Positions 1-16,330 of a DNA stretch of 20,466 nucleotides are shown one piece after another (positions within the stretch are counted from its first letter, which is position 1; each line of letters begins with the position of its first letter). Under the pieces are notes generated by a model that saw only the letters and a list, made by a program, of their open reading frames with translations, was not told the DNA's origin and did no database searches. The translations under genes and the position numbers were made by a program. The DNA is from a virus: positions 1 to 20,466 of IMG/VR virus record IMGVR_UViG_3300035701_000361; one strand, given 5' to 3'.

Positions 1-160
1 CAACATTTTTAATCCCATCAACTTCTTTGACAGTAAACTTGTCACCGTTAAAGATTTGGTAAGAAAGGATTTTTTCACGGGCAACAACTTTAAGACCAAC
101 CTTGATAGATGGATCTTCGTTGATCGGATACTTTTTGAGAAGTTCTGTTGCTCTAGACAT
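1..160 (-). CDS. Partial small protein with MSRATELL leader
   Basis: Only the first 53 residues lie in the window; the frame stays open off the low-coordinate edge. The start ATG (158-160) overlaps the TAA of the preceding gene by one base, so the two are probably translationally coupled. The first 13 residues, MSRATELLKKYPI, are the same as those of the upstream neighbour, but the bodies differ: this one continues NEDPSIKVGLKVVAREKI and looks like a short beta-rich, possibly SH3-like domain (GLKVVAREKI, FNGDKFTVKEVDG). I do not recognise the family. The shared leader ends I-N-E at residue 15, which fits a T4-type prohead protease site, so it may be a head-internal protein; that is inference. 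Confidence 0.75.
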   Translation of the reverse strand, partial: MSRATELLKKYPINEDPSIKVGLKVVAREKILSYQIFNGDKFTVKEVDGIKNV

Positions 161-384
161 TAGTTCACCCTATATTTGGCAATGGCGGCAATGATAGCAT
201 CCTCAACAGAGGTACCGGCAGCTGCAGCGTCTTTTCCAGCTTTAAAAATCTTCGACAAGTCCATCACTCCGACTTGAACGCCATTACCATGTTTTTTGTA
301 AAGAGTACTGATTTCGTCATCCAACTTGCTTTTTGGAGCTTCTTCAATTGGATATTTTTTGAGAAGTTCTGTTGCTCGGCTCAT
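160..384 (-). CDS. Small 74-aa protein with MSRATELL leader
   Basis: A 74-residue protein of unknown function. The ATG at 382-384 follows a GGAGG ribosome binding site lying in the last codons of the upstream gene, whose stop is one base away. The N-terminal MSRATELLKKYPIEE matches the next gene almost exactly; it is a predicted amphipathic helix ending I-E-E before Ala16. The rest is mostly helical (TLYKKHGNG, LSKIFKAGKDAAAAG, EDAIIAAIAKYRVN). No catalytic motif is visible. The two neighbours sharing only their leader suggests the leader is a module, possibly a capsid-targeting peptide removed by the prohead protease. The function of the body is unknown. Confidence 0.8.
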   Translation of the reverse strand: MSRATELLKKYPIEEAPKSKLDDEISTLYKKHGNGVQVGVMDLSKIFKAGKDAAAAGTSVEDAIIAAIAKYRVN

Positions 385-385
385 A

Positions 386-1084
386 TTACCTCCACGCCAG
401 ATAGAATTTTGAATCAGCAGCCATATCTTCGGAGGTTTTATCTTCTAGAGTTTGACCTTCAGATACTAACTCAGCACCATCACTAAGAATTGGTAGATCA
501 TTCATGGTGAAAGCACGACGACTCCGACCAATACCTTTGAGAAACTTCGCCGCACAGAGCTTGAAGAAATTATCGTCAAGATCGTTGATCGAAGAAATTT
601 CATAGGTAACAGTAGAGTCATTGAGAATTTTTTCTGTCAATCTATGAAAATAGACGGCAGAAATATCAAATTCACCGACAATGGGGACAGTTAATGTTGG
701 ATTTCGATATTCCCATGGGAAATCGGTTTTTACTTCAACATTAGATTTTGGCCGATCATATTCACGAAGAAAATATGGATAAACCCCGCTAATTCGGACC
801 GGTATCAGATCAAGAATCCAATCTGGTGGTCCACCATTAACGAGAGTCAACCCATCTTTACTCCTTAATGGTCCAGGAGTATTTTCTTCAGTAAATGTGT
901 ATTGCCTAAGATAAGCAATATTTTTGTAAAGAGCAACATTTAAAGGATTATAGCGATTGTAAAGTCCTAACACTATTTGCACTAGAGTCTTGAACCGATC
1001 TACATTCAACTCAAGCTTGTCAGGTGGCAGTTGAAACTGTCCTGACTCAAGAAGTGTCCGTTCAAAAATCTCTTGCAATAGCAT
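386..1084 (-). CDS. Hypothetical 232-aa protein of the head cluster
   Basis: I start this gene at ATG 1084; the frame is open further upstream, but that extension overlaps the 103-aa gene in another frame and reads as low-complexity Leu/Lys, so it is a shadow. An AGGGTGGGA sequence lies about 14 bases before the ATG, so ribosome binding is not ideal. The protein begins MLLQEIFERTLLESGQFQ, then a helical part (DRFKTLVQIVLGLYNRYNP) and a beta-rich body (residues about 60-170, with NPTLTVPIVGEFDI), ending in an acidic tail. Location after the capsid gene suggests a neck, head-completion or other virion part, but I recognise no family. L-L-E-S at residues 11-14 fits the possible prohead protease site seen in other genes here. 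Confidence 0.8.
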   Translation of the reverse strand: MLLQEIFERTLLESGQFQLPPDKLELNVDRFKTLVQIVLGLYNRYNPLNVALYKNIAYLRQYTFTEENTPGPLRSKDGLTLVNGGPPDWILDLIPVRISGVYPYFLREYDRPKSNVEVKTDFPWEYRNPTLTVPIVGEFDISAVYFHRLTEKILNDSTVTYEISSINDLDDNFFKLCAAKFLKGIGRSRRAFTMNDLPILSDGAELVSEGQTLEDKTSEDMAADSKFYLAWR

Positions 1085-1115
1085 TTTTAGACAATCCCAC
1101 CCTAAAATCCTTTTG

Positions 1116-1427
1116 TTACTTCTTACCGGACTTGGCTTTCTTATCTTCTTTTTCAGCTGCAGCTTCTTTTTCAGCTGCAGCAGCAGCCTCAGGAGAAACA
1201 GCAGAAGGATCAATTTGGACTTTGACCTTTTCCGTTTCAACTTTCTTGTCACCAACTTCAGTGAGCTTAGCCCATCCCTCATTGATAGCTGATGCAACGG
1301 CGGCAGAATAAGGTGCATATGCTGCTTCCGAGGCAAACACATGTTTCTCACCTTTTCCTAAGGTGAGAGGTTCAACACCAAGAGCGTTTAAAGTGACTGG
1401 CACTAGAGCTTCGACTTCATACTTCAT
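1116..1427 (-). CDS. Hypothetical 103-aa protein after the capsid gene
   Basis: A 103-residue protein starting at ATG 1425-1427. About 70 residues look folded (MKYEVEALVPVTLNALG..., INEGWAKLTEVGDKKVETEKV), followed by an Ala/Glu/Lys-rich tail (residues about 78-103) ending KKAKSGKK. The DNA of the tail contains short near-repeats around gctgcag and ctttttcagc. It sits just after the capsid terminator, with TGGGGCAT 4 bases before its start in place of a standard ribosome site. The position might suit a decoration or minor head protein, but there is no recognised domain and I do not claim that role. Confidence 0.75.
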   Translation of the reverse strand: MKYEVEALVPVTLNALGVEPLTLGKGEKHVFASEAAYAPYSAAVASAINEGWAKLTEVGDKKVETEKVKVQIDPSAVSPEAAAAAEKEAAAEKEDKKAKSGKK

Positions 1428-1455
1428 TTTGATGCCCCAGGATAGTATTTAGTTT

Positions 1456-1493
1456 CAAGAGAAAAGGGAGAAGCCCGATTAAGAGCTTCTCCC
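1456..1493 (-). terminator. Intrinsic terminator after the major capsid gene
   Basis: On the minus strand a perfect 9-bp stem (GGGAGAAGC paired with GCTTCTCCC, + strand 1466-1474 and 1485-1493) with a 10-base loop is followed directly by TTTTCTCTT. It lies 27 bases past the capsid stop codon and before the 103-aa gene, so it would end or thin out transcripts leaving the capsid gene. Confidence 0.85.
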
Positions 1494-1519
1494 GCTTGAT
1501 GCTATGCCAACACTATTCC

Positions 1520-2914
1520 TTAAGGAACAACGTTGAAGTTGGTCACGAACTGAGGAACAACCGTATCAACACCTGCCCACACTGCAGCGGCTTTCATCGA
1601 CTGCAATGGGTTTGGCGCTTGCGGCAAGGTAGCCGTTACGGTGAGAGGCATGAACGGTGAGTAGACCGCTGCAGCCTCCCACGGCGTCAAGCCCTTCCAC
1701 AGTGCAATACCAGCGTCCGTCGCCATGATTGCCGTTTCCACAACCCGAATAACAGTTACGCCATCCAAGGTTCCGAAGACGTGCGAACCAAGCGTCGTGC
1801 CATCCGACAACTTCTGGAAACCAGGAAGTGTTTGGATGACCGATGCATGCTTCTTGCCGACGATGAGAACCGAGACCGCGCCACGACCAGCATTGGTAAC
1901 GATTTCAGCTTCAGCCTTAGCAAGCTCATCTTTGTACGTCTGCTTGTGCTCGAAGAACGAGACACCAGCGGGGGCAGTACGAGAGAAGCTGTTAGTGCCA
2001 ATGGCTACCGCTTGCAACTTGCGGATAATGTCGCCGCCGATCTCACGGTTGATCTCTTGAACGAGATCTTTCGCAAGTTCATCTTCCAAGACCATACCAA
2101 AGCGCTTCGACATACCGAAGGCTTGGAACATACCCATCGTGCCTTTCAGAGCGTAGATGCGAGCCAAGATGCCTTTGCTATCGAAAAACGTGTCGATTTG
2201 TGGCAAGTCAGTTGCCAATTCGTAATTCTGCTGCCATGTTGCCTTGAGAAGGACGCCGTTACCAGGATCGGCAGCCAAGGTCACGGAGACCGCGCCAGTG
2301 GTGTAATTGATAGTACCAGCGATACCATTACCCCAAATCTTGCCGCCGCCAACGTCGCGACCTTCCACAGCAGTAGAGCCGAGAAGAATATAAAGGCTTT
2401 CCGACTTGACAGGTCCACCAGTTAAGGTGAAAGAGTAGACGAACTGAGCAGCGACCGACGTAGCAACAGTAACGCTTTCGAAAAGGTTCGAGGCGTAGCT
2501 GGCCGGAGTCACAACACCAGTACGGGGATCGACCACAACGTTACCAGCCGTTTGAGTACCTTTAGTGGTACCAGAACGAACTTGCTTGAAGTAAATCGTG
2601 CCACGCTCTTCTTCGATTGGCTGGACAGAAGCAATGACTGGGAGAATCGAAGCACCATGAACGGCAGTGATGACATCGTAAGCAATGTCTGGGATTTTGC
2701 CAAGCAAGTTGACGTTACCTTGCTCCTCGCAAATCCTCTTGTAATAATTGAATTGCTCGAACTGTTTGCCGAGAGCATAAACGTCGTAACTGTCGATCTT
2801 CTTGACCTTTGACAGCAACGAAGCATTCAGTGCGTCCATCTGATCACGATATTTATCGTAATACTGCTCTGCAACGCGGCTCATGTTTTCTTCACGAAGT
2901 TGAATCGGGTCCAT
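1520..2914 (-). CDS. Major capsid protein, T4 gp23-like
   Basis: This 464-aa protein is the likely main shell subunit of the head. The N-terminal ~63 residues are helical and charged (MDPIQLREENMSRVAEQYYD), like the removable N-terminus of gp23-type capsid proteins; a candidate cut site is I-C-E at residues 61-63. The body follows (NLLGKIPDIAYDVITAVHGA), with a beta-rich insertion at about residues 113-240 containing GTINYTTGAVSVTLAADPG, then the HK97-like remainder (MGMFQAFGMSKRFGMVLEDE, and the C-terminal TDAGIALWKGLTPWEAAAVY). It follows the protease-scaffold gene, as in T4. AGGAG sits 8 bases before the ATG. The gene looks richer in G+C and in C-ending codons than its neighbours, as expected for a very highly expressed gene. 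The family call rests on organisation and overall pattern, not on a search. Confidence 0.9.
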   Translation of the reverse strand: MDPIQLREENMSRVAEQYYDKYRDQMDALNASLLSKVKKIDSYDVYALGKQFEQFNYYKRICEEQGNVNLLGKIPDIAYDVITAVHGASILPVIASVQPIEEERGTIYFKQVRSGTTKGTQTAGNVVVDPRTGVVTPASYASNLFESVTVATSVAAQFVYSFTLTGGPVKSESLYILLGSTAVEGRDVGGGKIWGNGIAGTINYTTGAVSVTLAADPGNGVLLKATWQQNYELATDLPQIDTFFDSKGILARIYALKGTMGMFQAFGMSKRFGMVLEDELAKDLVQEINREIGGDIIRKLQAVAIGTNSFSRTAPAGVSFFEHKQTYKDELAKAEAEIVTNAGRGAVSVLIVGKKHASVIQTLPGFQKLSDGTTLGSHVFGTLDGVTVIRVVETAIMATDAGIALWKGLTPWEAAAVYSPFMPLTVTATLPQAPNPLQSMKAAAVWAGVDTVVPQFVTNFNVVP

Positions 2915-3013
2915 ATGAAAAGCTCCTAAAAATTTTGATGGTGTTTTTATTCTTTATCCTGCATCGTCCAGCATTAAGTGAGCTTTTCAATGCCAACACT
3001 AATAACGGAAACT

Positions 3014-3045
3014 GTTCTATTAAAGTGTAATAGAACCTAAGTCAA
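3014..3045 (-). promoter_or_regulatory. Candidate capsid promoter overlapping a hairpin
   Basis: In the 141-base spacer before the capsid gene, the minus strand has TTGACT, a 15-base spacer, then TTTAAT, a sigma70-like pair with one mismatch in each box but a short spacer. A perfect 9-bp inverted repeat (GTTCTATTA / TAATAGAAC, 5-base loop, 3014-3036) covers the -10 box. There is no U-run after it, so it is not a standard terminator. It could be a promoter-operator or an RNA processing site. Confidence 0.4.
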
Positions 3046-3055
3046 AACGGTCATT

Positions 3056-4432
3056 TCACTTGAAATGTTCCATGAGACGAACCGAACGAGGACGATCTAG
3101 ATCCAGTCCAGGACGCTCTTCTTTTTTGTTGCCTTTATTCTCATTGAGAGGACGCTTGTAAGTTGAGGAGACTCGGCTTACAGTCTTAGTAGGTGCACCT
3201 TCTTTAAGTCCAGAGAAAAATTCCTTAAGATCTTTGTCAGGCATTTTGCCGTAGACCTTGCGAATCTTTTCTTCAGAAACGCCAAGCTCTTTAGAGAGTG
3301 AAGCGATTTTCTTAAAATTGCTGGACTCCGTAAAGGATTCCATGACTTTCTCCGACCGCTCGCACAATGCAGCGAATTCTGCCGGAGTTCCTGACTTTTT
3401 ATAGGCTTCAACAAGTCCAGTCAGACGATCAATAAGCTTGTTGATTTCGTTCGGCTCTCCAATCCTCTTAAACTCAAGCAGTCGTTTTTTCGCCGAAGCA
3501 AAAGCCTTGACCACTTGGCTTTGAGTCCCATGCTGCTCGAAAAAGCTGGAATATTTCTCCAATCTTTTGACAGAATCAGTGAACTCTTCGTGAGTACCAA
3601 TAGCCTTGTACTTCTCGATGAGACGCACCGACACTTCAGCCTTGCTGAGTTGTGTCTTTAGGTTTTGGCTTTCCGACATAAGAACCGTTTTCTCGGCTCT
3701 AAGATCGTTGACTTCTTTCATCGCCTTCTCTAGGTCATTCTTAATCAAACCGTTCTCTTTAGAAAGGCTCTCCAGTAGCGCTTGCGGCATGCTCTTCTCC
3801 ATTGTATTGTCTAATGAGTTTACCTTACTAAGGCTCTCTACTAATTGTTCAAGAGACTCTACTAACTGTGGATTCGCCTGAGTAAAACCAGGATCAATAA
3901 CAAAATCGAAAGTTTCCAGAACAAACCTAGATGGATCGACTCTTGGTACACCGTTTTGTTCTCCAGCATACCGCCCATCAGCCCTAGAAGAAACAAATAA
4001 TTTAGAACCGGCTCTAAGGAAAGTATTAAGAATGCGACCAGCTGGAGTATCAAGGACCAAAGCTTCCCCGATTCCCTTTTCACCAGCTACGCTAAGATTA
4101 ACAATAACATGACTGATTTTTCCATCACGAATAGCATCATCATCAATCTTTTGATTGTGACCAATGGTGCCATACATGCGGCGATCCATAAATTGCTGCT
4201 TGATTCTTGGATCAGTACAAACTTTTTCCCAGAGTTCTTTTGGATAAAAGCGATTGTTACGGGAAATACCATTAGGGACGAAGAAGTTACCTTTGACTCT
4301 AGCTAAAACATTAGTTCCATCAACTTCACCATTAGCTTCTTCAACGGAAAAGGTAAGCTCTGGGTCCCATAAATCACGCTTGAAGCTTTCTTCTTGCAAT
4401 TGATTTGGCAGATTAGTTATGGCTTCACCCAT
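3056..4432 (-). CDS. Prohead protease fused to scaffold protein
   Basis: The 458-aa product appears to join two head-assembly roles. Residues ~30-180 match the S80 prohead core protease (T4 gp21 type): NNRFYPKELWEK, the likely catalytic histidine in GTIGHN (His92), ISHVIVN, a glycine-rich TPAGRILNTFLRAGSKL and the serine in FVSSRADGR (Ser148/149). Residues ~210-415 are a long, charged, mostly helical and partly coiled-coil segment as in scaffolding proteins, ending in a Lys/Arg-rich tail (QKRP-like, residues ~425-458). In the linker, L-V-E-S, L-V-E-S and L-L-E-S (after Glu192, 199 and 221) are candidate self-cleavage sites. GAGG lies 7 bases before the ATG. An internal ATG at Met215 has its own ribosome site. 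T4 splits protease (21) and core (22) into separate genes; here they are one reading frame. Confidence 0.88.
   Translation of the reverse strand: MGEAITNLPNQLQEESFKRDLWDPELTFSVEEANGEVDGTNVLARVKGNFFVPNGISRNNRFYPKELWEKVCTDPRIKQQFMDRRMYGTIGHNQKIDDDAIRDGKISHVIVNLSVAGEKGIGEALVLDTPAGRILNTFLRAGSKLFVSSRADGRYAGEQNGVPRVDPSRFVLETFDFVIDPGFTQANPQLVESLEQLVESLSKVNSLDNTMEKSMPQALLESLSKENGLIKNDLEKAMKEVNDLRAEKTVLMSESQNLKTQLSKAEVSVRLIEKYKAIGTHEEFTDSVKRLEKYSSFFEQHGTQSQVVKAFASAKKRLLEFKRIGEPNEINKLIDRLTGLVEAYKKSGTPAEFAALCERSEKVMESFTESSNFKKIASLSKELGVSEEKIRKVYGKMPDKDLKEFFSGLKEGAPTKTVSRVSSTYKRPLNENKGNKKEERPGLDLDRPRSVRLMEHFK
3788..3800 (-). promoter_or_regulatory. Internal ribosome site and start for scaffold alone
   Basis: Inside the protease-scaffold gene, GGAG (3797-3800) lies 6 bases before an in-frame ATG (3788-3790, Met215), exactly at the junction between the protease domain and the coiled-coil scaffold. 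Translation from here would make a separate 244-residue scaffold, as with lambda C/Nu3. The next upstream ATG (Met211) has no ribosome site. Seen in sequence; use is inferred. Confidence 0.45.
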
Positions 4433-4490
4433 TACAAAACCTCTTACAATACCCTAATTCGATATCTTCAACTTAGGAAAACGTAATTCG

Positions 4491-4928
4491 TTAAAGGGAA
4501 TTATTGCATGCTCTATGAAAAGTGTACTCAGCAGAATTTGGAAGAAATACCATTAGGGAGTGAGCAGACATTGACAATGCCCAAAGATTACCGTTTGTCG
4601 TTTCTTCATCTGGTTTCTTCATAACCATTTTATATTTAACTAAGTCTCTCTTTACTGAAACAACCGATGACCAAAAAGACTCAACAATTTCTGAACGTTT
4701 AGATGATGAGACTAGAACATTGATACGTCCTTCGAATAATGTTTCCACAATTTTATGTGGAATTCTAATATCTTCAAAAGAAAAATCAATAAGGATAGCC
4801 ACTTGATCTCTAAAAATCAAGTTCATTTCTCCAACTTTTACTTCCCCGACAAACGCCTCCAACTTCGAGTCCCCACATTCAGATCTCGTAATTTTCGTCG
4901 TAAAGTTAACTGGTTGGATCAAGAGCAC
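4491..4928 (-). CDS. Hypothetical 145-aa head-operon protein
   Basis: A 145-residue protein of unknown function. The best start is GTG at 4926-4928, preceded by AAGGAAGG 2-5 bases away, and it overlaps the end of the upstream gene by 10 bases. Beta-strand-like segments dominate (AFVGEVKVGEMNLIF, QVAILIDFSFEDIRIP, INVLVSSSKRSEIV). There is no signal peptide or membrane span and no motif I recognise. Its tight coupling between the 237-aa gene and the protease-scaffold gene suggests a role in head assembly or structure, by location only. Confidence 0.7.
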   Translation of the reverse strand: MLLIQPVNFTTKITRSECGDSKLEAFVGEVKVGEMNLIFRDQVAILIDFSFEDIRIPHKIVETLFEGRINVLVSSSKRSEIVESFWSSVVSVKRDLVKYKMVMKKPDEETTNGNLWALSMSAHSLMVFLPNSAEYTFHRACNNSL

Positions 4929-5632
4929 AACCTTCCTTTAACTGTGTTAAGAGATGTCAAATAAACATTATCATGGGTTTCTTCGTTGAGAGATCCTAAG
5001 GCTTGTTCAAAGGCCGCACGAATCTCTTGTTCAGAGACTTTATTATTTGAGGCTAATTCAAGAACCATTGAATCAAAATCACAAAGACGAGTCAAGAACT
5101 CCAAATCGTCGGCAGTTATAACACCATCAGAGCGAACAAGAGCACTTTCAATTCTGGAAACAGAAGGAAGGAGTTCTTCAATAAAAACGCAAAGATCAAT
5201 CTCATCTTCAAGTTGGTGGTAATAATCAAACTCGATGAGAGCATGAGTCTTAAGAGATGATAGAGCTTTCAATACTTCACAAACATCTTGAATCACCATA
5301 ACCTCGCTAGCCTCGCGCTTGTATTCACCAGACTTAAAATCCCTGGTGGCTAAGAAGCGACCAAGGGAGCGGTGAAATTTTTTACCAGCTGTTGAGGTAT
5401 GAAACTTCTTGATGCCTTTCATGTGCTTATAGCGATTTCTACGCCAAGAGTCTTTACTATCTTGAGATTTCCTAAAATCTTTAAGCTTGCCAATGAGAGG
5501 TTTCCGCTTCTTAATATACTGATCCAAGATAGACAGATCTGGTTTGTATTCGACAGTGGCTTTCGCAACTAGGTCGATACGTCCCACCTCAACCAAGAAC
5601 ATTTGAACATCATTTTGAGTCTTAAACTTCAC
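4919..5632 (-). CDS. Hypothetical 237-aa basic head-operon protein
   Basis: Starts at GTG 5630-5632, sharing GTGA with the stop of the membrane coiled-coil gene, with AGGG upstream. Residues ~40-95 are strongly basic (IKKRKPLIGKLKDFRKS, WRRNRYKHMKGIKKFH, KKFHRSLGRF), suggesting contact with nucleic acid or an acidic partner. Residues ~105-237 are acidic and helical (DYYHQLEDEIDLCVFIEELL, EQEIRAAFEQALGSLNEE). A basic half followed by an acidic half, placed directly before scaffold and protease, would suit a prohead core component, but I recognise no family and that remains a guess. Confidence 0.75.
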   Translation of the reverse strand: MKFKTQNDVQMFLVEVGRIDLVAKATVEYKPDLSILDQYIKKRKPLIGKLKDFRKSQDSKDSWRRNRYKHMKGIKKFHTSTAGKKFHRSLGRFLATRDFKSGEYKREASEVMVIQDVCEVLKALSSLKTHALIEFDYYHQLEDEIDLCVFIEELLPSVSRIESALVRSDGVITADDLEFLTRLCDFDSMVLELASNNKVSEQEIRAAFEQALGSLNEETHDNVYLTSLNTVKGRLCS

Positions 5633-6045
5633 GATTTCGCCCTGCCTAGCTCACGAATTGAATTTTGAATATCCTTAACATCAGCTTGAATATGATTCAT
5701 TGTGGCTTGTGAAGCATGATGTTGTTTCTCAACCCCAAGAAGTCGATCATCAAGATTATCTACTCTGCGGAGTGGAGCAGTAAGGCTTTTTTTAATATCT
5801 TCCAAATCATCACCAATTTGCCGAACCGAAGAATGATAAGCTGCTTCAAAAATGCCAAGTTTTTTATCGACCTCTTGCATCTTGTCTGATGGAGCTACCC
5901 TCTCCATACGGAGTTCGATAATGTTGATCTTAGAATTCAACCCCCGGATCTCCTTATAAAGGAGAATCACTAGGGGTAAAAGAATGAACTGAAAAATTTT
6001 AACAAGGATTTCTGTCCAGTCGTGCATCGTCCCCCCTTGTATCAT
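5629..6045 (-). CDS. Membrane-anchored coiled-coil protein
   Basis: A 138-aa protein with one hydrophobic span at residues ~12-30 (VKIFQFILLPLVILLY) followed by a long charged heptad-like coiled coil to the end (DKMQEVDKKLGIFE, RRVDNLDDRLLGVEKQHH, NHIQADVKDIQNSIREL). The ATG at 6043-6045 shares ATGA with the stop of the AAA+ gene; a second ATG at 6027 gives MHDWTEILVK and has an AAGGGGGG run before it, so the true start may be that one. Topology is probably a short N-terminus outside the coil with the coiled coil on one face of the membrane. It could anchor prohead assembly at the membrane, as T4 proheads start there, or act as a holin or spanin-like protein; neither is proven. Confidence 0.75.
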   Translation of the reverse strand: MIQGGTMHDWTEILVKIFQFILLPLVILLYKEIRGLNSKINIIELRMERVAPSDKMQEVDKKLGIFEAAYHSSVRQIGDDLEDIKKSLTAPLRRVDNLDDRLLGVEKQHHASQATMNHIQADVKDIQNSIRELGRAKS

Positions 6046-7784
6046 TTTTTCTTCTTAAGCACTGCTTTAAGGGAGCGTAGGTGTTTACCTTTAGCTTCTC
6101 TTTGTGGCTTACTTAAAGCCATCCTTTGCTTATAAGACAAACTACTGTAATTCTTTTCTTTCAGAATTGGTAGCTTAGAACGTTTGCTACCACGGATGAC
6201 AGATGACTCTAATAATTTTGATTCAGCCTTTTGGCCGAGCTTGTTACCAAAAGCATCTTGGCTAGTTGACACCGGAGTACCAGCTGCAGTTTGGAAGTCA
6301 CCAGCATTAAGAATCGTTAGAAGAGTAGTTTTGTTGAGCCATTCCAACTCTTGCAAGTTGATGTAGGTCCCATAAGCAGTCTCGGTCCGCGATGCTCCCA
6401 AAGAATCAAGATCAATGACCAGGTTGGTTTCTTGATCTCCATCCATAATCATGGCGGAGCATCCATCATCATCGTCATGAGAGAATGCTACCGACAATAA
6501 ATTTCCTTGGAGATCGACGAAATCAACGTAGATGTTACCATAAAGATCAGTGGAAACATCATCCACAGTAACATCAGCGATACCAAGCCTATCTAGCCGA
6601 AGCGACATAGCCTTATTAATAGCATCAAGAGAATCTTGGCTTAGAACGTCCATATCTTCGATGAGAGCAGCAGCACGAGACTTGGATTCAGCTTCGTTTA
6701 TTTTGATTAAATCTTGACGATTAACAACCTCGAACATTTCGTCAAGCTTCTTTTGAAACTTGGCTTCACCCCAACTACGCATACCTTTGTTGCTACCAGA
6801 TCCCATACCATTGGTGGCTTTAAGCCGCTTAATAGTTTCCGCCATCGAATATTTAAGGCAGTAGACGGAGACTAGAAGTTCACGGAGATCACCAAAAGAT
6901 AAACCATCGGTCTCGTTGGCAATGTCTTTAATCTCAACCTCGGTCAATTTCTTTTTCTTCAGTTTCATCTCAAGATAAGCTTTGCGGCCTTCTAATGGCG
7001 GGAACGGAACCTCAACCTTACGGTCGAAACGACCAGAACGGAGCATACGCTCCGGCAATCGATCGATATGGTTGGTAGTGGCAAGATAAAGAACATTATC
7101 AACTTGAGTTTCGCCGTCAAACAATTCTAGGAGGGAATGCTCGTCGTACTGCACCATTTTATCAATATCTTCCAGGATGACTACACATCTACGATCAGAT
7201 TCGATTTCTCGGAAACTTTTGAGACCTTCAAGCAGGGAACCAACACTCTTAACGAGAAAAACAATATTTCCCTGCTTGACCATCTCTTCCATGACTAACT
7301 TGAGTACACATGTCTTTCCGGAGCCCGGAGGTCCATAGAGCATCATCCCACGCTTGTGCACGAAACCCATATCGTCGAAATCGCCCTTGAGTTCCCAAAA
7401 TTGGCCGATCTCGTTGATTACAGTATCTTGACGCTCATCCTTGAACCGAAGGATTTCGTCGGAGCGGATGTCGGCTTGTTCGAAAAAAGTACCCATCTCA
7501 AATGATGAACGAACATTATAAACACCAGGAGACAATTTGCCTTCAAGCTTGATTTTGCCAACTGGAGAAGAAACGTTGCCATTTTTGGTGTACTGAACCA
7601 CCGACTTGACACGCTTTTGCCCATTAATTGGTGACTCTTGCCCCATCGGGTGTTGCATGTCGAAGTCTTCTGTCAAAGACTCACCAACAAAACCAAGATC
7701 GATCACTGCTTGATTGTCTGGATTAGTAATAGCTTCAACAAGCATTTTATTGAGATTGGCTAGGGCTGCGCTTGCTCTGGACAT
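6042..7784 (-). CDS. AAA+ ATPase in the head operon
   Basis: A 580-aa protein with a classic AAA module at residues ~105-330: Walker A GPPGSGKT (151-158), Walker B VVILEDID (201-208), sensor-1 ATTN (235-238) and the second region of homology LPERMLRSGRFDRKVE with likely arginine fingers at 249 and 252. This resembles FtsH, proteasomal and BCS1-type AAA ATPases, but no peptidase (no HExxH) is attached. Residues ~385-500 form a separate acidic beta-rich domain (NIYVDFVDLQGNLLSVAF, SHDDDDG), and the C-terminus is very basic, ending LKKKK. The N-terminus MSRASAALANLNKMLVE resembles a capsid-targeting leader ending L-V-E. GGAG sits 6 bases before the ATG, immediately after the ATP-grasp stop. Role unknown: a remodelling or packaging chaperone, or a virion protein. 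Confidence 0.9.
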   Translation of the reverse strand: MSRASAALANLNKMLVEAITNPDNQAVIDLGFVGESLTEDFDMQHPMGQESPINGQKRVKSVVQYTKNGNVSSPVGKIKLEGKLSPGVYNVRSSFEMGTFFEQADIRSDEILRFKDERQDTVINEIGQFWELKGDFDDMGFVHKRGMMLYGPPGSGKTCVLKLVMEEMVKQGNIVFLVKSVGSLLEGLKSFREIESDRRCVVILEDIDKMVQYDEHSLLELFDGETQVDNVLYLATTNHIDRLPERMLRSGRFDRKVEVPFPPLEGRKAYLEMKLKKKKLTEVEIKDIANETDGLSFGDLRELLVSVYCLKYSMAETIKRLKATNGMGSGSNKGMRSWGEAKFQKKLDEMFEVVNRQDLIKINEAESKSRAAALIEDMDVLSQDSLDAINKAMSLRLDRLGIADVTVDDVSTDLYGNIYVDFVDLQGNLLSVAFSHDDDDGCSAMIMDGDQETNLVIDLDSLGASRTETAYGTYINLQELEWLNKTTLLTILNAGDFQTAAGTPVSTSQDAFGNKLGQKAESKLLESSVIRGSKRSKLPILKEKNYSSLSYKQRMALSKPQREAKGKHLRSLKAVLKKKK

Positions 7785-10993: not shown

Positions 10994-10996
10994 TTA

Positions 10997-13900
10997 TTAT
11001 CCTTCATTCCAGAACATATTTTGCAAATTCTCAGTTCCAACCGATTGCTTCTTTTCAACATAGTGCATAAGTCTAATTTTACTGGCATCAATCATTGCTG
11101 TATAGATTGATCCACATGCGGCATCTGCTAAATCTTTTGAGCCGTCTGGTTGATGGTCTACCTTAGTTCCATCCGGCGTGACTTCAAGGTTCTCTAATTC
11201 TTCTTTTAATAACTTATTTTGAGGCACCATAACGCGGCCTTCGTAAAGAGCGTTTCGAACTTCAGTATAAGGTGTTGAGGTTTTGTCCATAGAAAGCAAT
11301 TCGGCGGTAAATCCCATCTTGGTAAGCAGTTGGATCATTTCGGCAGACTGGAATCCATCAGACGTAATTCTACCAACTGGATATCCGACAGAAGAAAGCC
11401 ACTGGATGAAAGCTCTGATTTTAAAAAGTGGAACCTGCTTGCCGTTTTTCGGCTCGATGCCAATGCACCATTCGCAAACAACCTCAGGCACCGACTCCGA
11501 CACTTCTTGGAAAGTAGAAATGTCGCGATAAATACGATCACGAAACTTGGTGACATAACTACCAGCAATGCCAAGACGGTCACCGGAAAGTCCAATATCT
11601 AAGTGGATGTTACGAGGATAACCTTTGTTGAGCGGATTAAGAAAATAGTTTTTAACTAAGCAGTAATTAGAAATCTGGTCGTTGTCATCATCAAAATCTA
11701 ATTGAAACTTGTCAGGGAAAAGTGGTGATACTGCAATTGCTTTAGTTAATCGATCTTTAAGACGGAACAGCCGATACTTAGAACCGGTAGCAATACCAGC
11801 CAAGTCGCGGAGTGCCTCTACAGTATCGGCTTCGAATGCATCTTTATGCTCTGTTGGAACTTGGATGCAATTTTCTGGCTCACTAATTAAAATTGGGCTG
11901 TCTAATTGAAGGAGTTCTGGTTGTTTAACGTCGGAACCTTTGAATACCCAAAATCTAGCAGTGCCGTAACGGTGAGGCTTTACATCCCAAACTGCTGCCT
12001 GGGATACTTTAACGCCTTGACTTCGGCGATAGCTATCTACAATCTTGTTGACGGCGGAGAACTTGTCGGTTTCAGAGGAATCAATCCAAATCTTACCTGG
12101 GATACCATCTGAACCAATAAATCGTGATTCCATTCGGCGAAGAACCGAGTTAAAAGTCTTATAAGTTTGTCCTTCAATAACCTCGAAGTTAGCCTCGGAA
12201 ATAATGGCTGAATTGTGCAAAAAAACACCCTGTTCAACAGCAAAATTGTGAAACTCGTCTACAGTAATGTCGTAGACAGGAACTTTTTCAGCTAGTTCTA
12301 CCATACGAACTGACACCACTTTATGGTTTAGACAATGGCGTTTATGATTGTTAGCAGAAACTTGTTTTTCAAACAATCGAGAACACTGTGGGCATGTCCA
12401 GTTCACAATTTTATTGGCAGATTTTGCACCGCCAGCTGCAGCACCTTCTTTAATAATCTTCACAGTATTTGGGTTAGACCAAACCACTTTCGCTGCAGCA
12501 CGACCACCAGCCCTAGACATCTCCAGCAAACTTTCACGCTGAGCCGGATCACTCCACCGGCGAGCGTTAACTATTTTGGCGGTCTTAGAGGAAGCTTTAC
12601 TAATTTTTTCTTTGTTGTCTGGGTTAGACCACGTAGCAGCAGCTGCCTTTTTCCCAAATTCTACCTGATGTGGCCTCAAATCGGCTCTGAACTTCGGGTC
12701 TTTCCACTTTTCCGTTAACGTTGCCGAAAACTCCCTACTCTTACGTTCAGCAAATTCTTCCGTCCATACTGATTTACCAGCTTTAGACAATTTAGCTTTC
12801 GTCACGGGGTTAGATCGTAAGATTTCTGCTGCTGCCTTACCACCTTTAGATTGAGACACCTTCATGCGACTTCTGTACTCTGGGTCTTGCCAACGATCAG
12901 AATGCAAATGCTTATGATCAACAGGCGACATCAGCATCAAATTCGACGGATCATTGTTGCGTGAATTATAATCGATATGGTGAGCCACCTGACTACCCTT
13001 GTAACCACCCAAACATTCACGAACCACTAACCGGTGAACAAGTTCAACCTTCCCAGTTGTGTTATCGACAACTGCTGAATACCTATCCCACTGTCCAGAC
13101 TTCTTTCCAAAATATAGCGGCATTAAACTGTTATTAGGCTTCAACTGGTCAGCCGTAACGTAAGACCCGTCCCTCATCATAAATGGGTGATTATTAGTAC
13201 AACGAATCGTCTTACCGTTGTCCAATTCAACTTCATAAAGGCGGTCAACATATCCAGTAATCCGAGCACTGTGACCACGGCCAGGGATGACATGGCCATT
13301 TTTATCTGATGAATACAGCCAAAAATGATCTCTGCCAACTAATTCTTGAATAGGAACCGACTCACCATTTAAAAGTTGAATTTTGGTATCACCGGTTAAA
13401 CAATGAATTGCCTGTCCCAAGGCGTGACCCATCCGAGAGCCCATGATGAAGTCTACGCGATTCGGAAAAAGAGTGTCGTCTGAACCGAAGGATCGTTTCT
13501 TTTTCGAGCCAAAAACACCGACAAATTGGTAGAAAAATGGACTCTGCACAAACATTTGAGAGAGCTTGTCCCAAACAACATCAGTGGTAAGGGAAAGAGT
13601 CCGGTTAAAAATCGCAAAGAGGATTTTTGTAGACCGAACAAGGCCGAATGACTCCTGAGGGGCATTCATTAGAATGAGCTTGTAAATATCGTAGGCGAGA
13701 CCAGCACAAGCAACCGACGTGTTGTGAGAAATAAATCCATCAAACACATAAGACGGATCATCAGCAACAGATAAATCGTAAACTTCACGATTGACTGTTT
13801 CGATAGAGCGGACTTCATCAGTATAACACTGAAAATCGTTCACAAAGTCAAAGTCACGAACCAAACCACCAGTCTTAAAGGTACTGGCAATACGTTGTAC

Positions 13901-15271
13901 ACTATCGAGTGTGGTAGTTTGATTACTAACCATTCCCCACACCGATCTAACATTTCGTGCTTGTGTTTTAACACCAGACTCACGAAGTCTCTGGTCTAGC
14001 TGGCGCAAAATCGGAGAAAATCCAACCAGTGGTAGCCTAACATTGCTCCCACTATCCTTGGAAGCCAAAAGCTCTGCGAAAGCTTGTTGTTTATAAACTA
14101 GGCGAGGACGAAAATTAAGTTCTGCTAAGCGCCGGAATGATCTATAATTGTGAATACTAAGTCGCCAATAGACATGCTCACGATTCACAAAATGCTTAGG
14201 CGTGACACGAACCAAAAGACCTAAAGCACTACAAATTGAAGCCAAACCTCTAATAAAACACTCAGATGAATTTGAAATTTCTATAGCTGCCATGTGTGTA
14301 GAGAGATGGCCGTCAGTATCAACCACACCAGCTATATATTCTACCTGATCTGCTGCTGATGCCTCGAAGATAAATTCCGGTACTAATTTTGGTAGTCTAC
14401 CGCCTTCATTTTGCTCCTTACCCAGAAACCCCTGACTAAGCAAATAACTGGCAAGTGAACGACTAACTTTTCTAGTAGCAAAACAATTTCTACTTAAATA
14501 CCAGTTATTAAAACCACCAGCAAATTCAGAGAAACCTTTCTCTATAGATTCACGATAATTATCATCTTTAATATCAACAGCATTCATAATAAAATGAATT
14601 ACAACTCTATCACCATTTTTAAGGACGGAGATACCACCATCTCCAGAAATAGCACCAACAAACCAAGCAAAATTCGGTAATAGGACTTTGTTGCCAACAG
14701 GTGATGGTCGGAGCGTCCGAAGAATTTTATCTCCTTGGCAAAGATCACTAGCCTTTTTCCACAGGATAGCACCAGTGGTCGGATGTAATACCCGAAAACG
14801 ATGGTTATCACCTACCGTAACTTTCGCACCTTTTATAGTAGAGATTGTGCGACATGGTTTGATCCCGTCACTAACCATAAAAGATACTTCTTTCGGGCCA
14901 CTTTCCGAAAGAACTTGAAATCGTGAACCACTAGACCATAACGCATAAAGATCTTTGATACATTTTATGCCTAAACTTGTAGGTACTCTAGTGTCACTAT
15001 CAAGGCATTTGCCTTGTCCTATAGATCCCCGCAGAGAAATCAACCAATAAGGACTAAAAAATGGCGAAGGATAAACCTCTTTTAAAAAATTTCTCCAATA
15101 ACCATAAAGATCTCCGTTCCAGTAAGCACCTAGGTACTTATCTGAATCCAAAAATTCCTCAATGCAAACTGGTTTCTCTTTGTAATTAGCAATTGATGCA
15201 TAAAGATCTTCCAATTGTCCTAAACTTAATTGGGAGAGATATGGATCAAGTTCTTCAGCTACCTCATGCAT
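10997..15271 (-). CDS. terL: Terminase large subunit precursor with two inteins
   Basis: The 1424-aa precursor contains 598 residues of terminase (88 + 106 + 404) interrupted by inteins of 429 and 397 residues. The packaging ATPase has Walker A G-S-I-G-Q-G-K (82-88), completed by Thr518 after intein 1 is removed, and a Walker B-like SAIISEANF after intein 2, with Glu as the likely catalytic residue and Ser where most families have Asp. The C-terminal RNase H-like nuclease is intact: HLDIGLSGDRLGIAGS, ITSDGFQSAEMIQLL and VDHQPDGSKDLADAACGS carry the three acidic motifs. Terminase pumps DNA into the prohead through the portal and cuts it. The ATG at 15269-15271 has only a weak ribosome site. 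Both insertions are in frame with all splicing residues, so I expect a functional spliced protein. Confidence 0.95.
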   Translation of the reverse strand: MHEVAEELDPYLSQLSLGQLEDLYASIANYKEKPVCIEEFLDSDKYLGAYWNGDLYGYWRNFLKEVYPSPFFSPYWLISLRGSIGQGKCLDSDTRVPTSLGIKCIKDLYALWSSGSRFQVLSESGPKEVSFMVSDGIKPCRTISTIKGAKVTVGDNHRFRVLHPTTGAILWKKASDLCQGDKILRTLRPSPVGNKVLLPNFAWFVGAISGDGGISVLKNGDRVVIHFIMNAVDIKDDNYRESIEKGFSEFAGGFNNWYLSRNCFATRKVSRSLASYLLSQGFLGKEQNEGGRLPKLVPEFIFEASAADQVEYIAGVVDTDGHLSTHMAAIEISNSSECFIRGLASICSALGLLVRVTPKHFVNREHVYWRLSIHNYRSFRRLAELNFRPRLVYKQQAFAELLASKDSGSNVRLPLVGFSPILRQLDQRLRESGVKTQARNVRSVWGMVSNQTTTLDSVQRIASTFKTGGLVRDFDFVNDFQCYTDEVRSIETVNREVYDLSVADDPSYVFDGFISHNTSVACAGLAYDIYKLILMNAPQESFGLVRSTKILFAIFNRTLSLTTDVVWDKLSQMFVQSPFFYQFVGVFGSKKKRSFGSDDTLFPNRVDFIMGSRMGHALGQAIHCLTGDTKIQLLNGESVPIQELVGRDHFWLYSSDKNGHVIPGRGHSARITGYVDRLYEVELDNGKTIRCTNNHPFMMRDGSYVTADQLKPNNSLMPLYFGKKSGQWDRYSAVVDNTTGKVELVHRLVVRECLGGYKGSQVAHHIDYNSRNNDPSNLMLMSPVDHKHLHSDRWQDPEYRSRMKVSQSKGGKAAAEILRSNPVTKAKLSKAGKSVWTEEFAERKSREFSATLTEKWKDPKFRADLRPHQVEFGKKAAAATWSNPDNKEKISKASSKTAKIVNARRWSDPAQRESLLEMSRAGGRAAAKVVWSNPNTVKIIKEGAAAGGAKSANKIVNWTCPQCSRLFEKQVSANNHKRHCLNHKVVSVRMVELAEKVPVYDITVDEFHNFAVEQGVFLHNSAIISEANFEVIEGQTYKTFNSVLRRMESRFIGSDGIPGKIWIDSSETDKFSAVNKIVDSYRRSQGVKVSQAAVWDVKPHRYGTARFWVFKGSDVKQPELLQLDSPILISEPENCIQVPTEHKDAFEADTVEALRDLAGIATGSKYRLFRLKDRLTKAIAVSPLFPDKFQLDFDDDNDQISNYCLVKNYFLNPLNKGYPRNIHLDIGLSGDRLGIAGSYVTKFRDRIYRDISTFQEVSESVPEVVCEWCIGIEPKNGKQVPLFKIRAFIQWLSSVGYPVGRITSDGFQSAEMIQLLTKMGFTAELLSMDKTSTPYTEVRNALYEGRVMVPQNKLLKEELENLEVTPDGTKVDHQPDGSKDLADAACGSIYTAMIDASKIRLMHYVEKKQSVGTENLQNMFWNEG
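12212..13402 (-). mobile_element. Intein 2 with HNH endonuclease, at Walker B
   Basis: A 397-residue intein from Cys1 (CLTGDTKIQLLNGE) to His396-Asn397 (VEQGVFLHN), followed by Ser. The block with CTNNHPF (His72) and VYDITVDEFHNF are the splicing motifs. The endonuclease is HNH: AHHIDYNSRNNDPSNLMLMS (His141/142, Asn154) then DHKHLH. Residues ~168-330 hold about six W-x-D/N-P repeat units (RWQDPEYRSR, KWKDPKFRAD, TWSNPDNKEK, RWSDPAQRES, VWSNPNTVKI) like NUMOD3 DNA-binding repeats, and C-P-Q-C ... H-x-x-H-C (337-357) is a zinc-finger-like site. The splice point is just before SAIISEANF, the Walker B region. DNA borders: TGT at 13400-13402 and AAT at 12212-12214. Confidence 0.94.
13721..15007 (-). 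mobile_element. Intein 1 with LAGLIDADG endonuclease, in Walker A
   Basis: A 429-residue intein from Cys1 (CLDSDTRVPT) to the terminal His428-Asn429 (DGFISHN), followed by Thr. The N-block TVGDNHRF (His69) and the C-terminal VYDLSVADDPSYVFDGF are the usual Hint splicing motifs. Two dodecapeptides, WFVGAISGDGGIS (about 115-127) and YIAGVVDTDGHLS (about 224-236), identify a DOD homing endonuclease with acidic residues in place. It splits the terminase P-loop between Lys88 and Thr518 (G-Q-G-K / T-S), so the host protein is dead until it is spliced. The borders are exact in the DNA: TGC at 15005-15007 and AAC at 13721-13723. Confidence 0.95.
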
Positions 15272-15286
15272 TAATTACCAGATCAA

Positions 15287-15535
15287 TTAAGAAGTTTTGT
15301 CGATGATCATATCATTCCAATCATCAGAATCAGTCAATTCTGGTGGCAATTTCGGATTAAATTCCCAAGAGAAGCCATCTCTGTCACTATAAAAAACTGT
15401 ACCTTTGTAATTTTTTCCATTATAAGATACAGTCATATCGCGAGAGGATTTATCATCCTCGGTTTCCAACTTACCTAAGTTAGAAACCTTAATAGTAGTC
15501 TCACAAAGCTGAAACAACTCTTGTGCTAAATTCAT
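15287..15535 (-). CDS. Hypothetical 82-aa protein
   Basis: An 82-residue acidic protein, 15 bases before terminase. ATG is at 15533-15535, with TGGGGCAT 5 bases upstream, as at the 103-aa gene. The N-terminal helix MNLAQELFQLCE ends L-C-E, which fits the candidate prohead protease site. The body has two or three beta strands (DMTVSYNGKNYKGTVFYSD, GFSWEFNPKLPPEL) and an acidic end. No family is recognised. Its neighbours 15677-16282 carry a similar kind of leader, so it may be one of a set of small head-internal proteins; this is inference. Confidence 0.7.
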   Translation of the reverse strand: MNLAQELFQLCETTIKVSNLGKLETEDDKSSRDMTVSYNGKNYKGTVFYSDRDGFSWEFNPKLPPELTDSDDWNDMIIDKTS

Positions 15536-15676
15536 ACATCATGCCCCAAAAGTATTAGGTAGCTCTGGCTGGAATTGTACCAAAAACAATTCTCAGAACC
15601 ACCCTCCAACCGAGATTCGTGATTAACTGGTATGCCCAGGCCAATATGTTGCCGAGCTATGATAATGAGATTTTTG
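15536..15676 (-). other. 141-base spacer with hairpin and stray frame
   Basis: A perfect 7-bp inverted repeat (GAATTGT / ACAATTC, 7-base loop, 15572-15592) lies here without a U-run, so it is not a terminator. A frame without stops crosses the spacer on the minus strand and ends in a TGA that overlaps the next ATG (15532-15535), reading for example ENCFWYNSSQSYLILLGHDV, but it has no start codon with a ribosome site. It may be relic coding sequence. Confidence 0.4.
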
Positions 15677-15937
15677 TTAGCTCTTACCGCTAATCCCAGC
15701 TTCATCCGACAACACCATAAGGTCAGCAATAGGAACATCCATACGAGTAGCTTTCCCAAACTTAACATCTACAGTGTTACGCTCTGGGTGAAGCTGGACA
15801 ACATAAGCCGTCATACCAGCTTCCGGAGTTCCTTCTTTAAAAACAACATTAGAACCTTCTTTAAGGTCTTTAAGGCTGCTGATATCTTTAGAGAAAGACT
15901 CATTGAGGGATTTATTAATACGATCTACCTTGCTCAT
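15677..15937 (-). CDS. Small 86-aa protein, MSKVDRIN paralogue A
   Basis: An 86-residue protein of unknown function. ATG at 15935-15937, GGAG 7 bases before. The leader MSKVDRINKSLNESFSKDIS is shared with the next upstream gene and ends L-N-E at residue 13 before Ser. The body (SNVVFKEGTPEAGMTAYVVQ, NTVDVKFGKATRMDVPIADL) looks like a small SH3 or KOW-type beta barrel. It carries the complete version of a segment found only as an out-of-frame fragment after paralogue B, so this copy is likely closest to the ancestor. The leader suggests a head-internal protein if the prohead protease cuts there. Confidence 0.8.
   Translation of the reverse strand: MSKVDRINKSLNESFSKDISSLKDLKEGSNVVFKEGTPEAGMTAYVVQLHPERNTVDVKFGKATRMDVPIADLMVLSDEAGISGKS
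15767..15823. repeat. 57-bp direct repeat, copy 1
   Basis: These 57 bases are identical to 15984-16040 (offset 217). Here they are in frame and encode EAGMTAYVVQLHPERNTVD of paralogue A. In the second copy the same bases lie out of frame at and beyond the stop of paralogue B. Confidence 0.9.
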
Positions 15938-15985
15938 CTCGTGACTCCTTATTTAAAGCTTTACGCCACTTCTCAAATTTAGTAT
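15837..15985. repeat. Leader plus N-terminus repeat, copy 1
   Basis: About 149 bases covering the ribosome site, start and first ~32 codons of paralogue A. Copy 2 is at 16190-16330. They differ by a 9-base gap (ggtctttaa type, giving DLK E versus E) and a few substitutions, including ATG here against GTG in copy 2. Confidence 0.9.
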
Positions 15986-16040
15986 CTACAGTGTTACGCT
16001 CTGGGTGAAGCTGGACAACATAAGCCGTCATACCAGCTTC
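15984..16040. repeat. 57-bp direct repeat, copy 2 (gene fragment)
   Basis: Identical to 15767-15823. It supplies the last codons (KLV) and TGA stop of paralogue B in a shifted frame, and then runs directly into the leader of paralogue A. It is best read as a left-over internal fragment of an ancestral paralogue A gene. Confidence 0.9.
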
Positions 16041-16282
16041 TTTTTCAGCTCATCCAATAGTCCATCCGAGAACTCACCAGACATTCCTTCATCTTCAATA
16101 GACATGACAAGATAATTAGCGAAATTCTTGCCATCCGCATAGGTTGGTTTGAACCTCTTGAGATCAAGGTACTCAAGAAGTACATCAGGTTTAAAAACAA
16201 CATTAGAACTTTCTTTAAGGCTGCTGATATCTTTAGAGAAAGACTCATTGAGGGATTTATTAATACGATCTACCTTGCTCAC
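16028..16282 (-). CDS. Small 84-aa chimeric protein, MSKVDRIN paralogue B
   Basis: An 84-residue protein starting at GTG 16280-16282, with GGAG 7 bases before it. Residues 1-30 are nearly identical to paralogue A (MSKVDRINKSLNESFSKDIS, then SNVVFK), but from residue 31 the body is unrelated: PDVLLEYLDLKRFKPTYADG and MSGEFSDGLLDELKKKLV, a helical segment. Its final codons lie in a frame-shifted piece of paralogue A. So about 150 bases of foreign sequence appear to replace the middle of a duplicated paralogue A. The function is unknown, and the start codon has drifted from ATG to GTG. Leader site L-N-E at residue 13. Confidence 0.78.
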   Translation of the reverse strand: MSKVDRINKSLNESFSKDISSLKESSNVVFKPDVLLEYLDLKRFKPTYADGKNFANYLVMSIEDEGMSGEFSDGLLDELKKKLV

Positions 16283-16330
16283 CTCGGGACTCCTTATTTA
16301 AAGCTTTACGCCACTTCTCAAATTTAGTAT
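16190..16330. repeat. Leader plus N-terminus repeat, copy 2
   Basis: The second copy of the sequence at 15837-15985 (offset 345 past the 9-base gap). It extends upstream of the start to the minus-strand sequence reading TKFEKWRKALNKES in an open frame, which is also present before paralogue A. Confidence 0.9.

Follow-up and report, generated by a model that had tools for sequence, protein, structure and literature searches.

The window, by which we mean the whole stretch of 20,466 nucleotides analysed here (IMG/VR record IMGVR_UViG_3300035701_000361), is a fragment of a T4-superfamily myovirus with a gp23-type capsid and an S77 protease. The features on which our analysis rests are the following:

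2..160, minus strand: putative cargo gene 1, partial; leader MSRATELLKKYPINE, followed by D, encoded at 116-160
160..384, minus strand: putative cargo gene 2, 74 aa; leader MSRATELLKKYPIEE, followed by A, encoded at 340-384
1520..2914, minus strand: gp23-type major capsid protein (PF07068, E=1.6e-17)
2726-2734, minus strand: presumed capsid cut site I61-C62-E63, conserved in 67/70 homologues
3056..4432, minus strand: S77-type prohead protease fused to scaffold (PF03420, E=5.2e-9; phrog_207, E=1.1e-28)
4919..5632, minus strand: conserved gene between portal and protease, without a leader (tblastn matches in 30 related loci)
6042..7784, minus strand: AAA+ ATPase fused to a core-like domain (PF00004, E=2.6e-19; VCP/YjoB matches)
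6648..6686, minus strand: internal leader relic SKSRAAALIEDMD, residues 367-379, at the junction of the AAA+ and core-like domains
15287..15535, minus strand: putative cargo gene, 82 aa, just upstream of terL; leader MNLAQELFQLCE, followed by T, at 15500-15535
15677..15937, minus strand: putative cargo gene, 86 aa; leader MSKVDRINKSLNE, followed by S, encoded at 15899-15937
16028..16282, minus strand: putative cargo gene, 84 aa, GTG start; leader the same as in 15677..15937

A T4-superfamily head module is recognised by homologous proteins in the order portal, core proteins, protease/scaffold and capsid, and the window meets this description; the T4 gene order is 20-67-68-21-22-23, although in this phage protease and scaffold are fused. 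The portal is homologous to that of the cultured Rhizobium phage Y65, and 4919..5632 occupies the position of the T4 prohead core genes gp67/gp68, its role being inferred from position only. The protease residues H92, S148 and D176 are kept as H/S/D in 97-98% of 65 homologues. Beyond the protease domain, from residue 190, there are [LIV]-x-E-S sites, with the linker site present in 8 of the 11 recognisable cases; the linker in the window carries L-V-E-S twice and L-L-E-S once, as the initial annotation claimed. At the gp23-like site, [ILMFV]-x-E is found in 67 of 70 major capsid homologues, and the equation of this site with T4 gp23 E65 rests on position and motif, because gaps spoiled the residue-level alignment.

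The initial annotation listed seven genes whose otherwise unrelated products begin with a short helical leader ending in [L/I]-x-E, and we located the leaders that it quoted where it had placed them, on the minus strand. Equal frequency of this motif in unrelated genes would have refuted its proposal, but the rates are unequal: 10 of the 23 window genes have [LI]-x-E with the glutamate at residues 12-17, compared with 75 of 1034 genes (7.3%) from control viral contigs (binomial P ~2e-6 for this weak motif, the genes not all being independent). Six of the seven listed genes were kept. The seventh, 386-1084, was rejected as a leader gene because only 8 of 24 homologues have E at the end of the triplet that aligns with its L-L-E, and because homology of its body begins at residue 1; judged by position it is a conserved capsid-neighbouring protein of the neck type, and it is one of the chance matches to [L/I]-x-E against which the annotation had itself warned. 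The weak motif also matches the portal, the protease and 4919-5632, genes absent from that list, and a better-defined leader, M-[SN]-[KR]-A-x-x-L-[LI]...E, was derived from relatives.

Gene 2-160 is truncated by the end of the window; its first 15 residues are common to the neighbouring gene, mostly by way of synonymous codon changes, and the bodies of the two look unrelated. The leader of 160-384 fits the pattern built from relatives, and MNLAQELFQLCE before T has the same form as MNRAQELIKMCE before Q and MSKADRLLQLCE before V in relatives. A homologue of 15677-15937 in the relative L165 (39% over 74 aa, aligned from Met1) begins with the canonical MSKASKVIQVMQE. The two genes bearing MSKVDRINKSLNE, 15677-15937 and 16028-16282, were rejected as independent cases and are counted as one observation because of a tandem DNA duplication: a near-identical segment of ~140 nt, upstream region included, is common to both, and DNA alignment pairs 16190-16328 with 15836-15983, the downstream part having been replaced in 16028-16282.

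The leader family is real, and larger than could be seen by the initial annotation. In related contigs the pattern M-[SN]-[KR]-A-x-x-[LIVF]-[LI]-x-x-[hydrophobic]-x-E stands at the start of many unrelated genes, with ~17 leader genes in one relative and ~10 in Y65 (NC_070967), where leader proteins start at 75905, 76361, 130992, 134660, 137651 and 152346 on the plus strand and at 159031, 159498 and 159826 on the minus strand. Its strict core, M[SN][KR]A..[LIVF], was found at 49 gene starts and at none of 3647 internal methionines; together with [LIVMF]-x-E, the core occurs 58 times in 1.37 Mb of family DNA, against none in 0.70 Mb of control contigs and none in reversed DNA. When the columns of the pattern were permuted, the true order outperformed all others in a set of 360, with 88 genes against a median of 12. 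A test free of any pattern found 162 within-contig gene pairs alike at residues 2-13, compared with 6 at residues 32-43, and clustering by body divided 92 leader proteins into 85 clusters. Raw counts from a collection-wide DNA scan for the leader and a permuted pattern were not comparable, and only the protein-level follow-up was used, in which, among the matches listed, the full leader form was present in 9 against 1 for the permuted control.

Alignment across related phages, also suggested in the annotation, revealed conservation to residue 13 with hydrophobic spacing. Residues of the leader are kept while codons at its invariant positions are saturated with synonymous change, also within one genome, and hence selection acts on the leader peptide. 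E and K are frequent throughout the helix. Leader dialects differ by lineage, each being common within one phage (for example MKLIKELNQLLE, MKLVNEINSMLE and MSRISQLNKKFE), as expected if leaders are read by a phage-specific partner. In several contigs, leader genes are concentrated near those for terminase, portal, protease and capsid; among relatives, the core-like proteins encoded between portal and protease have leaders, and so does Y65 gp330, annotated as 'prohead core protein' (phrog_3503). Some Y65 leader genes sit in non-structural regions, among tRNA and non-structural genes. A regex match to the Y65 dUTPase was clearly due to chance and was discarded. Our literature search for such leaders in this clade found no paper, an absence that does not prove novelty.

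The distribution of [LIVMF]-x-E within leaders peaks at residues 9, 12 and 13 (24, 22 and 27 of 88, against a background of ~2). A clean hydrophobic-x-E at residues 12-14 is present in 46 of 92 leaders and lacking in the others; in these 46 the P2 residue is Cys five times and Asn nine times, against backgrounds of 0.8% and 4%, and the choices at P3 and P2 resemble those of the conserved capsid site. No peptide starting after the leader glutamate has been seen in any relative, and cleavage of leaders in this phage is an inference drawn from sequence alone.

The product of 6042..7784 begins with the leader MSRASAALANLNKMLVE, followed by A and encoded at 7734-7784, and combines a VCP/CDC48-like domain (residues ~136-305) with a core-like domain that has a basic tail (~380-580); a fold search with the core-like domain matched nothing. 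A direct search of viral contigs for AAA+ relatives found none, and homologues were obtained through the neighbours of capsid genes instead; all four of these start with a leader. The fusion of AAA+ and core-like domains is present in the window and in the relative G001, and the core-like domain's own leader survives at the junction: the internal SKSRAAALIEDMD lines up with the starts of stand-alone homologues, whose leaders read MSKAQKLLEQF and MSKANKIIEMI, as well as with SESRASKLLEEMD of G001. The best match to the AAA+ protein in a phage database is a 1338-aa protein of Xanthomonas phage phiXF1, which has its AAA+ domain at the C-terminal end.

Information on virions comes from a distant relative with published virion proteomics, Yersinia phage YerA41 (PMC7354516). 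Of six proteins with the YerA41 dialect, five carry the record label 'structural protein', one of them an ATP-grasp protein whose gene lies far from the head cluster; in YerA41_205, 206, 208, 209 and 066 the predicted cut follows KFE and precedes A or S. We take the label to mean detection by the published virion mass spectrometry, a reading that a figure legend supports. The proportion has P=0.001 against 40 labelled of 213, or 0.012 against 63 of 201 detected. Since most genes neighbouring the leader genes are labelled too (16 of 22), part of this association is positional.

We consider it highly probable that the leaders are T4-type capsid-targeting sequences in a strongly expanded form. 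Such sequences are expected to be short N-terminal peptides common to unrelated proteins of one phage, to place a hydrophobic-x-Glu at a fixed distance, and to occur in a genome that has an S77 protease and a gp23-type capsid with the same site. The leaders satisfy each of these expectations, the distance being exact, at 12-14, in half of them. The proposal that they are capsid-targeting peptides on head cargo, an AAA+ ATPase included, is supported by a specific leader conserved across relatives, a locked site that matches the one in the capsid, the four AAA+ homologues and the YerA41 labels; packaging and cleavage have not been demonstrated in this phage, for which no virion mass spectrometry data exist. 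The leader would form an amphipathic N-terminal helix of 12-17 residues, with small and hydrophobic residues at positions 4, 7, 8 and ~11. By docking on the prohead scaffold or core, this helix would bring unrelated cargo proteins, the AAA+ ATPase among them, into the core before the shell closes round it. The S77 prohead protease would then cut after the glutamate of hydrophobic-x-E, freeing mature cargo inside the head, from which it would exit together with the DNA when a host is infected. In the AAA+ fusions of the window and G001, an additional, internal leader or cut site survives between the two domains. Our analysis establishes the shared leader and its specificity, the locked position of the site, the matching capsid site, the conserved protease and, in YerA41, an association with labelled virion proteins; that leaders bind the scaffold and are actually cut, that this phage packages the cargo and that the cargo is ejected into the host are all inferred.

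Amphipathic N-terminal helices can target membranes, and the leader might accordingly address a site other than the head, be it a membrane, a replication compartment or a host/phage hub. The Y65 leader genes among tRNA and non-structural genes would suit such an address, but we judge it very unlikely given the clustering near terminase, portal, protease and capsid genes, the leaders of Y65 gp330, a prohead core protein by annotation, and of the core-like proteins encoded between portal and protease, and the particle-protein label of YerA41 leader proteins. Scarcely credible, and already disfavoured by the pattern of leader conservation and by synonymous saturation, is the suggestion that the common starts stem from a recent duplication at the DNA level or serve translation initiation on the mRNA, with no function as peptides, and that the [L/I]-x-E matches are chance. 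It accounts for the tandem pair 15677-15937 and 16028-16282, for 386-1084 and for the prevalence of the bare motif in control genes, but not for saturated codons at invariant residues (also within a single genome), conservation to residue 13 with hydrophobic spacing, unrelated bodies and controls near zero.

Cutting itself could be denied: the leader may be a helix that docks on the scaffold or on some other part of the head, the cargo keeping its N-terminus and the glutamate being merely part of the helix. Half of the leaders lack the clean site at 12-14, E and K are common all along the helix, and nothing beyond sequence speaks for cutting. We nevertheless think this improbable, given that hydrophobic-x-E is about ten times as frequent at residues 9 and 12-13, to which it is locked, as it is further in, that P3 and P2 resemble the capsid site, and that T4 leaders of this form undergo cleavage (PMC9026906, PMC5694885).

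A broader reading, to which we give somewhat less than even credence, is that these phages operate a modular head-delivery system. Each lineage's dialect would be read by its own scaffold, and the load would comprise some ten to seventeen unrelated proteins; a VCP-like AAA+ unfoldase would be among them, joined in relatives by an encapsulated-ferritin-like protein and an ATP-grasp enzyme. Leaders would double as internal cut sites, at which the fused AAA+/core polyprotein is split inside the prohead. With a leader that can be read from sequence, the likely contents of the head, and hence the first proteins to reach the host, could be listed across a large and mostly uncultured phage clade in which nearly all genes are of unknown function. 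Such predictions become testable in existing isolates, the leaders supply new tags for packaging proteins in phage heads, and the question arises of what a VCP-like ATPase does inside one.

The system is like T4 in that the gp21-cut propeptides of IPI-III, Alt and gp24 are also short N-terminal helices common to unrelated proteins with a hydrophobic-x-E end, and in that a gp21-type S77 protease and a gp23-type capsid with the same site are found in the same genome. The IPIII propeptide (MKTYQEFIAE, before A) has the form of the leaders here, and gp24 (MAKINELLRE, before S) has nearly the spacing of M-S-K-A-x-E-L-L; hydrophobic residues are spaced at positions 4, 7 and 8 as in IPIII and gp24, in peptides too short to prove common descent. 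Targeting in T4 maps to residues 4 and 7, and processing to 8 and 10 (PMC9026906). This phage and its relatives differ from T4 in the predicted cut (residue 12-17, against 6-10), the leader (M[SN][KR]A..L[LI], against MKTYQEF) and the number of leader genes per phage (about ten to seventeen, against a handful), as well as in their lineage dialects, a putative cargo that includes an AAA+ ATPase and an EncFtn-like protein, and the internal leader at a fusion junction. The inner-body propeptides of phiKZ/SPN3US, associated with an S80 protease, are similarly N-terminal, end in x-x-E and are borne by head cargo, and SPN3US gp53 and gp54 have an identical N-terminus (PMC5694885); several exceed 100 residues and their sites are A/S/G-x-E, whereas the leaders here are short with a bulky hydrophobic P3. 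In P1, the first 30 residues of DarB contain an N-terminal capsid-targeting signal and suffice to bring a reporter into the head, and no common consensus was found among the Dar proteins (PMC9024508), in contrast to the leader that many proteins have in common here.

The initial annotation proposed that several proteins of the window, an AAA+ ATPase among them, are head cargo marked by short leaders ending in [L/I]-x-E. The leaders it listed were found at their coordinates, and the weak [LI]-x-E motif is in excess, occurring in 10 of 23 window genes compared with 7.3% in control contigs. Since this motif is weak, a sharper pattern was sought in relatives. One proposed gene, 386-1084, was dropped and the following leader genes were kept; all window genes used in the leader analysis lie on the - strand.

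2-160, - strand: leader gene
160-384, - strand: leader gene
6042-7784, - strand: leader gene, AAA+ protein
15287-15535, - strand: leader gene
15677-15937, - strand: leader gene; homologue on the related contig L165 aligned from Met1, with canonical start MSKASKVIQVMQE
16028-16282, - strand: leader gene, sharing a tandem DNA duplication with 15677-15937

The window spans an entire viral metagenome record of 20,466 bases, itself a piece of a larger genome. It encodes a gp23-type capsid protein (PF07068, E=1.6e-17) and, fused to a scaffold part, an S77 prohead protease (PF03420, phrog_207) whose H92, S148 and D176 are retained in 97-98% of 65 homologues. The order portal, intervening genes, protease-scaffold, capsid matches T4 20-67-68-21-22-23. 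Of the annotated relatives, the RHph_Y65 group of Rhizobium phages (Kleczkowskaviridae) is nearest, with 47% capsid identity; E. coli IME392, Acinetobacter Ab1-TPeters, Vibrio phages and Yersinia YerA41 come next. The large terminase gene (10997-15271) contains two inteins, at approximately residues 89-517 (LAGLIDADG domain) and 624-1019 (HNH domain), and its extein parts match the Y65 terminase piecewise. An orphan gene at 18557-19123 has a weak BppU_N-like match (E=0.028) and is similar over part of its length to a large tail-region ORF of G001, an 81.6-kb relative. In another related contig (L075:8683-11659) the capsid gene is in pieces, two of them separated by a GIY-YIG-like ORF (9296-9994), which suggests an intron-borne homing endonuclease.

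In G001, successive small genes start with MSKAKQLTEKL, MSRAEKLLNEM, MSKAKNLLTLVSE, MSRAKSLLNTFNE and similar sequences. Across 72 relatives gathered by a capsid-alignment search, the pattern M[STNKQ][KRTQIL][AS]..[LIVMF] fits 88 starts (1248 distinct genes), and its column order is the best among all 360 orders (median 12). The strict form M[SN][KR]A..[LIVF] occurs at 49 gene starts and at none of 3647 internal methionines, while leader core plus cut motif occurs 58 times in 1.37 Mb of family DNA, but never in 0.70 Mb of control contigs or in reversed sequence. A pattern-free test agrees: 162 within-contig gene pairs are alike at residues 2-13, against 6 at residues 32-43. The bodies behind the leaders are unrelated (92 proteins form 85 clusters), and codons at fixed leader residues vary freely among synonyms, and therefore the peptide is what is kept. 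Gene starts were picked by a simple ribosome-site rule, with no trained gene finder, the counts rest on contigs that are mostly fragments, and L165, which the leader scan itself first detected, contributes 6 of the 92 core hits.

When residues 2-7 alone are used to define the leaders, hydrophobic-x-Glu shows peaks at positions 9, 12 and 13 (24, 22 and 27 of 88, respectively) over a background of about 2 per position. Capsid proteins have one conserved [ILMFV]-x-E near residue 63 (67 of 70 cases), close to residue 65, where T4 gp23 is cut; this comparison is by position, as gaps prevented residue-level alignment. Cys and Asn at the middle residue of the site are over-represented in leaders and also frequent at the capsid site.

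The window AAA+ protein is VCP/YjoB-like, with intact Walker A and B motifs, and its proposed leader was borne out, since it and its three phage relatives all start with one (MSRASAALANLNKMLVE, MSRAKSLLNTFNE, MTRAKDILNSLNE, MSRAQKICEGLNQ). The C-terminal third of the window protein forms a domain of its own. In L025, L075 and other contigs this domain is a stand-alone protein that has a basic tail and its own leader and is encoded upstream of the protease gene. A predicted model of the stand-alone protein places the leader, with moderate confidence, in a helix of its own (residues 3-12) preceding a folded body, and the fold of this core-like protein matched nothing known. The fusion junction retains SKSRAAALIEDMD and SESRASKLLEEMD in the window and G001 proteins. 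Because these align with the stand-alone leaders, and [SN][KR]A..[LI][LI] is otherwise rare within proteins (16 per 316,622 residues), a leader-bearing core gene was probably, judging from sequence, fused behind a leader-bearing AAA+ gene, its inner leader being retained in both. The G001 AAA+ gene has an intein within its Walker A motif (GPPGSGK/T; G001 43584-46430, L012:7584-10427), and a Hint/homing endonuclease domain was one of the Pfam matches in the scanned leader proteins.

The tandem duplication shared by 15677-15937 and 16028-16282, at 15836-16328, comprises a leader gene and its upstream region. In one copy the downstream part, the body, is replaced by a segment of unknown origin with a shift of frame, leaving a common leader before a different body, possibly a snapshot of a leader acquiring new cargo. 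Leader versions differ by lineage, each being shared by genes of a single phage: MKLIKELNQLLE and relatives in L029/L031/L051, MKLVNEINSMLE in L035, MKLCEELN in L047, MSKLSKLLDKINE in L048, MRAKDLLQLLNE in L017 and MSRISQLNKKFEA in YerA41. Such dialects are expected if the leader is read by a partner specific to each phage, which is presumably the scaffold but was not identified.

A link to virions comes from YerA41, for which proteomics detected 63 particle-associated proteins (PMC7354516). Close to their starts, six YerA41 genes have [NK]KFE[AS] in common. Five of them bear the GenBank product name 'structural protein', one being YerA41_066, an ATP-grasp protein encoded approximately 110 kb from the head cluster. 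We take this label to mean detection by mass spectrometry, because the Figure 2 legend of PMC7354516 reads 'phage particle associated (structural) proteins' and other notes in the GenBank record agree; this reading rests on the legend and those notes alone. On that basis leader and label are associated (P=0.001 against 40 of 213 genes labelled; P=0.012 against 63 of 201 detected), with the caveat that 16 of 22 head-cluster neighbours are also labelled. Y65 has a leader (MSKSADLITKIDAYYE/S, the slash marking the predicted cut) at the start of gp330, whose annotation is 'prohead core protein' (phrog_3503, E=3e-12).

Further observations concern two leader proteins of relatives and a neighbour of the AAA+ gene. 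The leader protein of L053:1611-1898 (MNKAQKILKEFAE/S) apparently accounts for a match to EncFtn-like/rubrerythrin families, an assignment that relies on its E-x-x-H motif with no separate scan; it is possible, from these motifs alone, that it is a ferritin-like iron enzyme packed in the phage head. L026:1543-1941 encodes an apparent HAD-type phosphatase (DLDGTL motif) immediately after a shortened leader, MNRARQFLEYN. Adjoining the window AAA+ gene, 7785-9137 (homologues in L017, L026 and L053) encodes a protein that is ATP-grasp-like by eye, without a Pfam match; a leader-bearing ATP-grasp protein is among the labelled YerA41 particle proteins.

T4 internal proteins are described as diverse anti-defence proteins whose only common part is the capsid-targeting sequence (PMC3012670). 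Its first 10 residues are sufficient, residues 4 and 7 for targeting while 8 and 10 govern cutting (PMC9026906). T4 leaders start MAKINELLRE/S (gp24) and MKTYQEFIAE/A (IPIII). Like these, the family leaders have hydrophobic or small residues at positions 4, 7 and 8, and their predicted cut is displaced by two to three residues or more towards the C-terminus; common descent is not settled because the peptide is so short. Judged from sequence, with no experiment on the window phage and with sufficiency and removal only inferred, the leader family would work like a capsid-targeting sequence.
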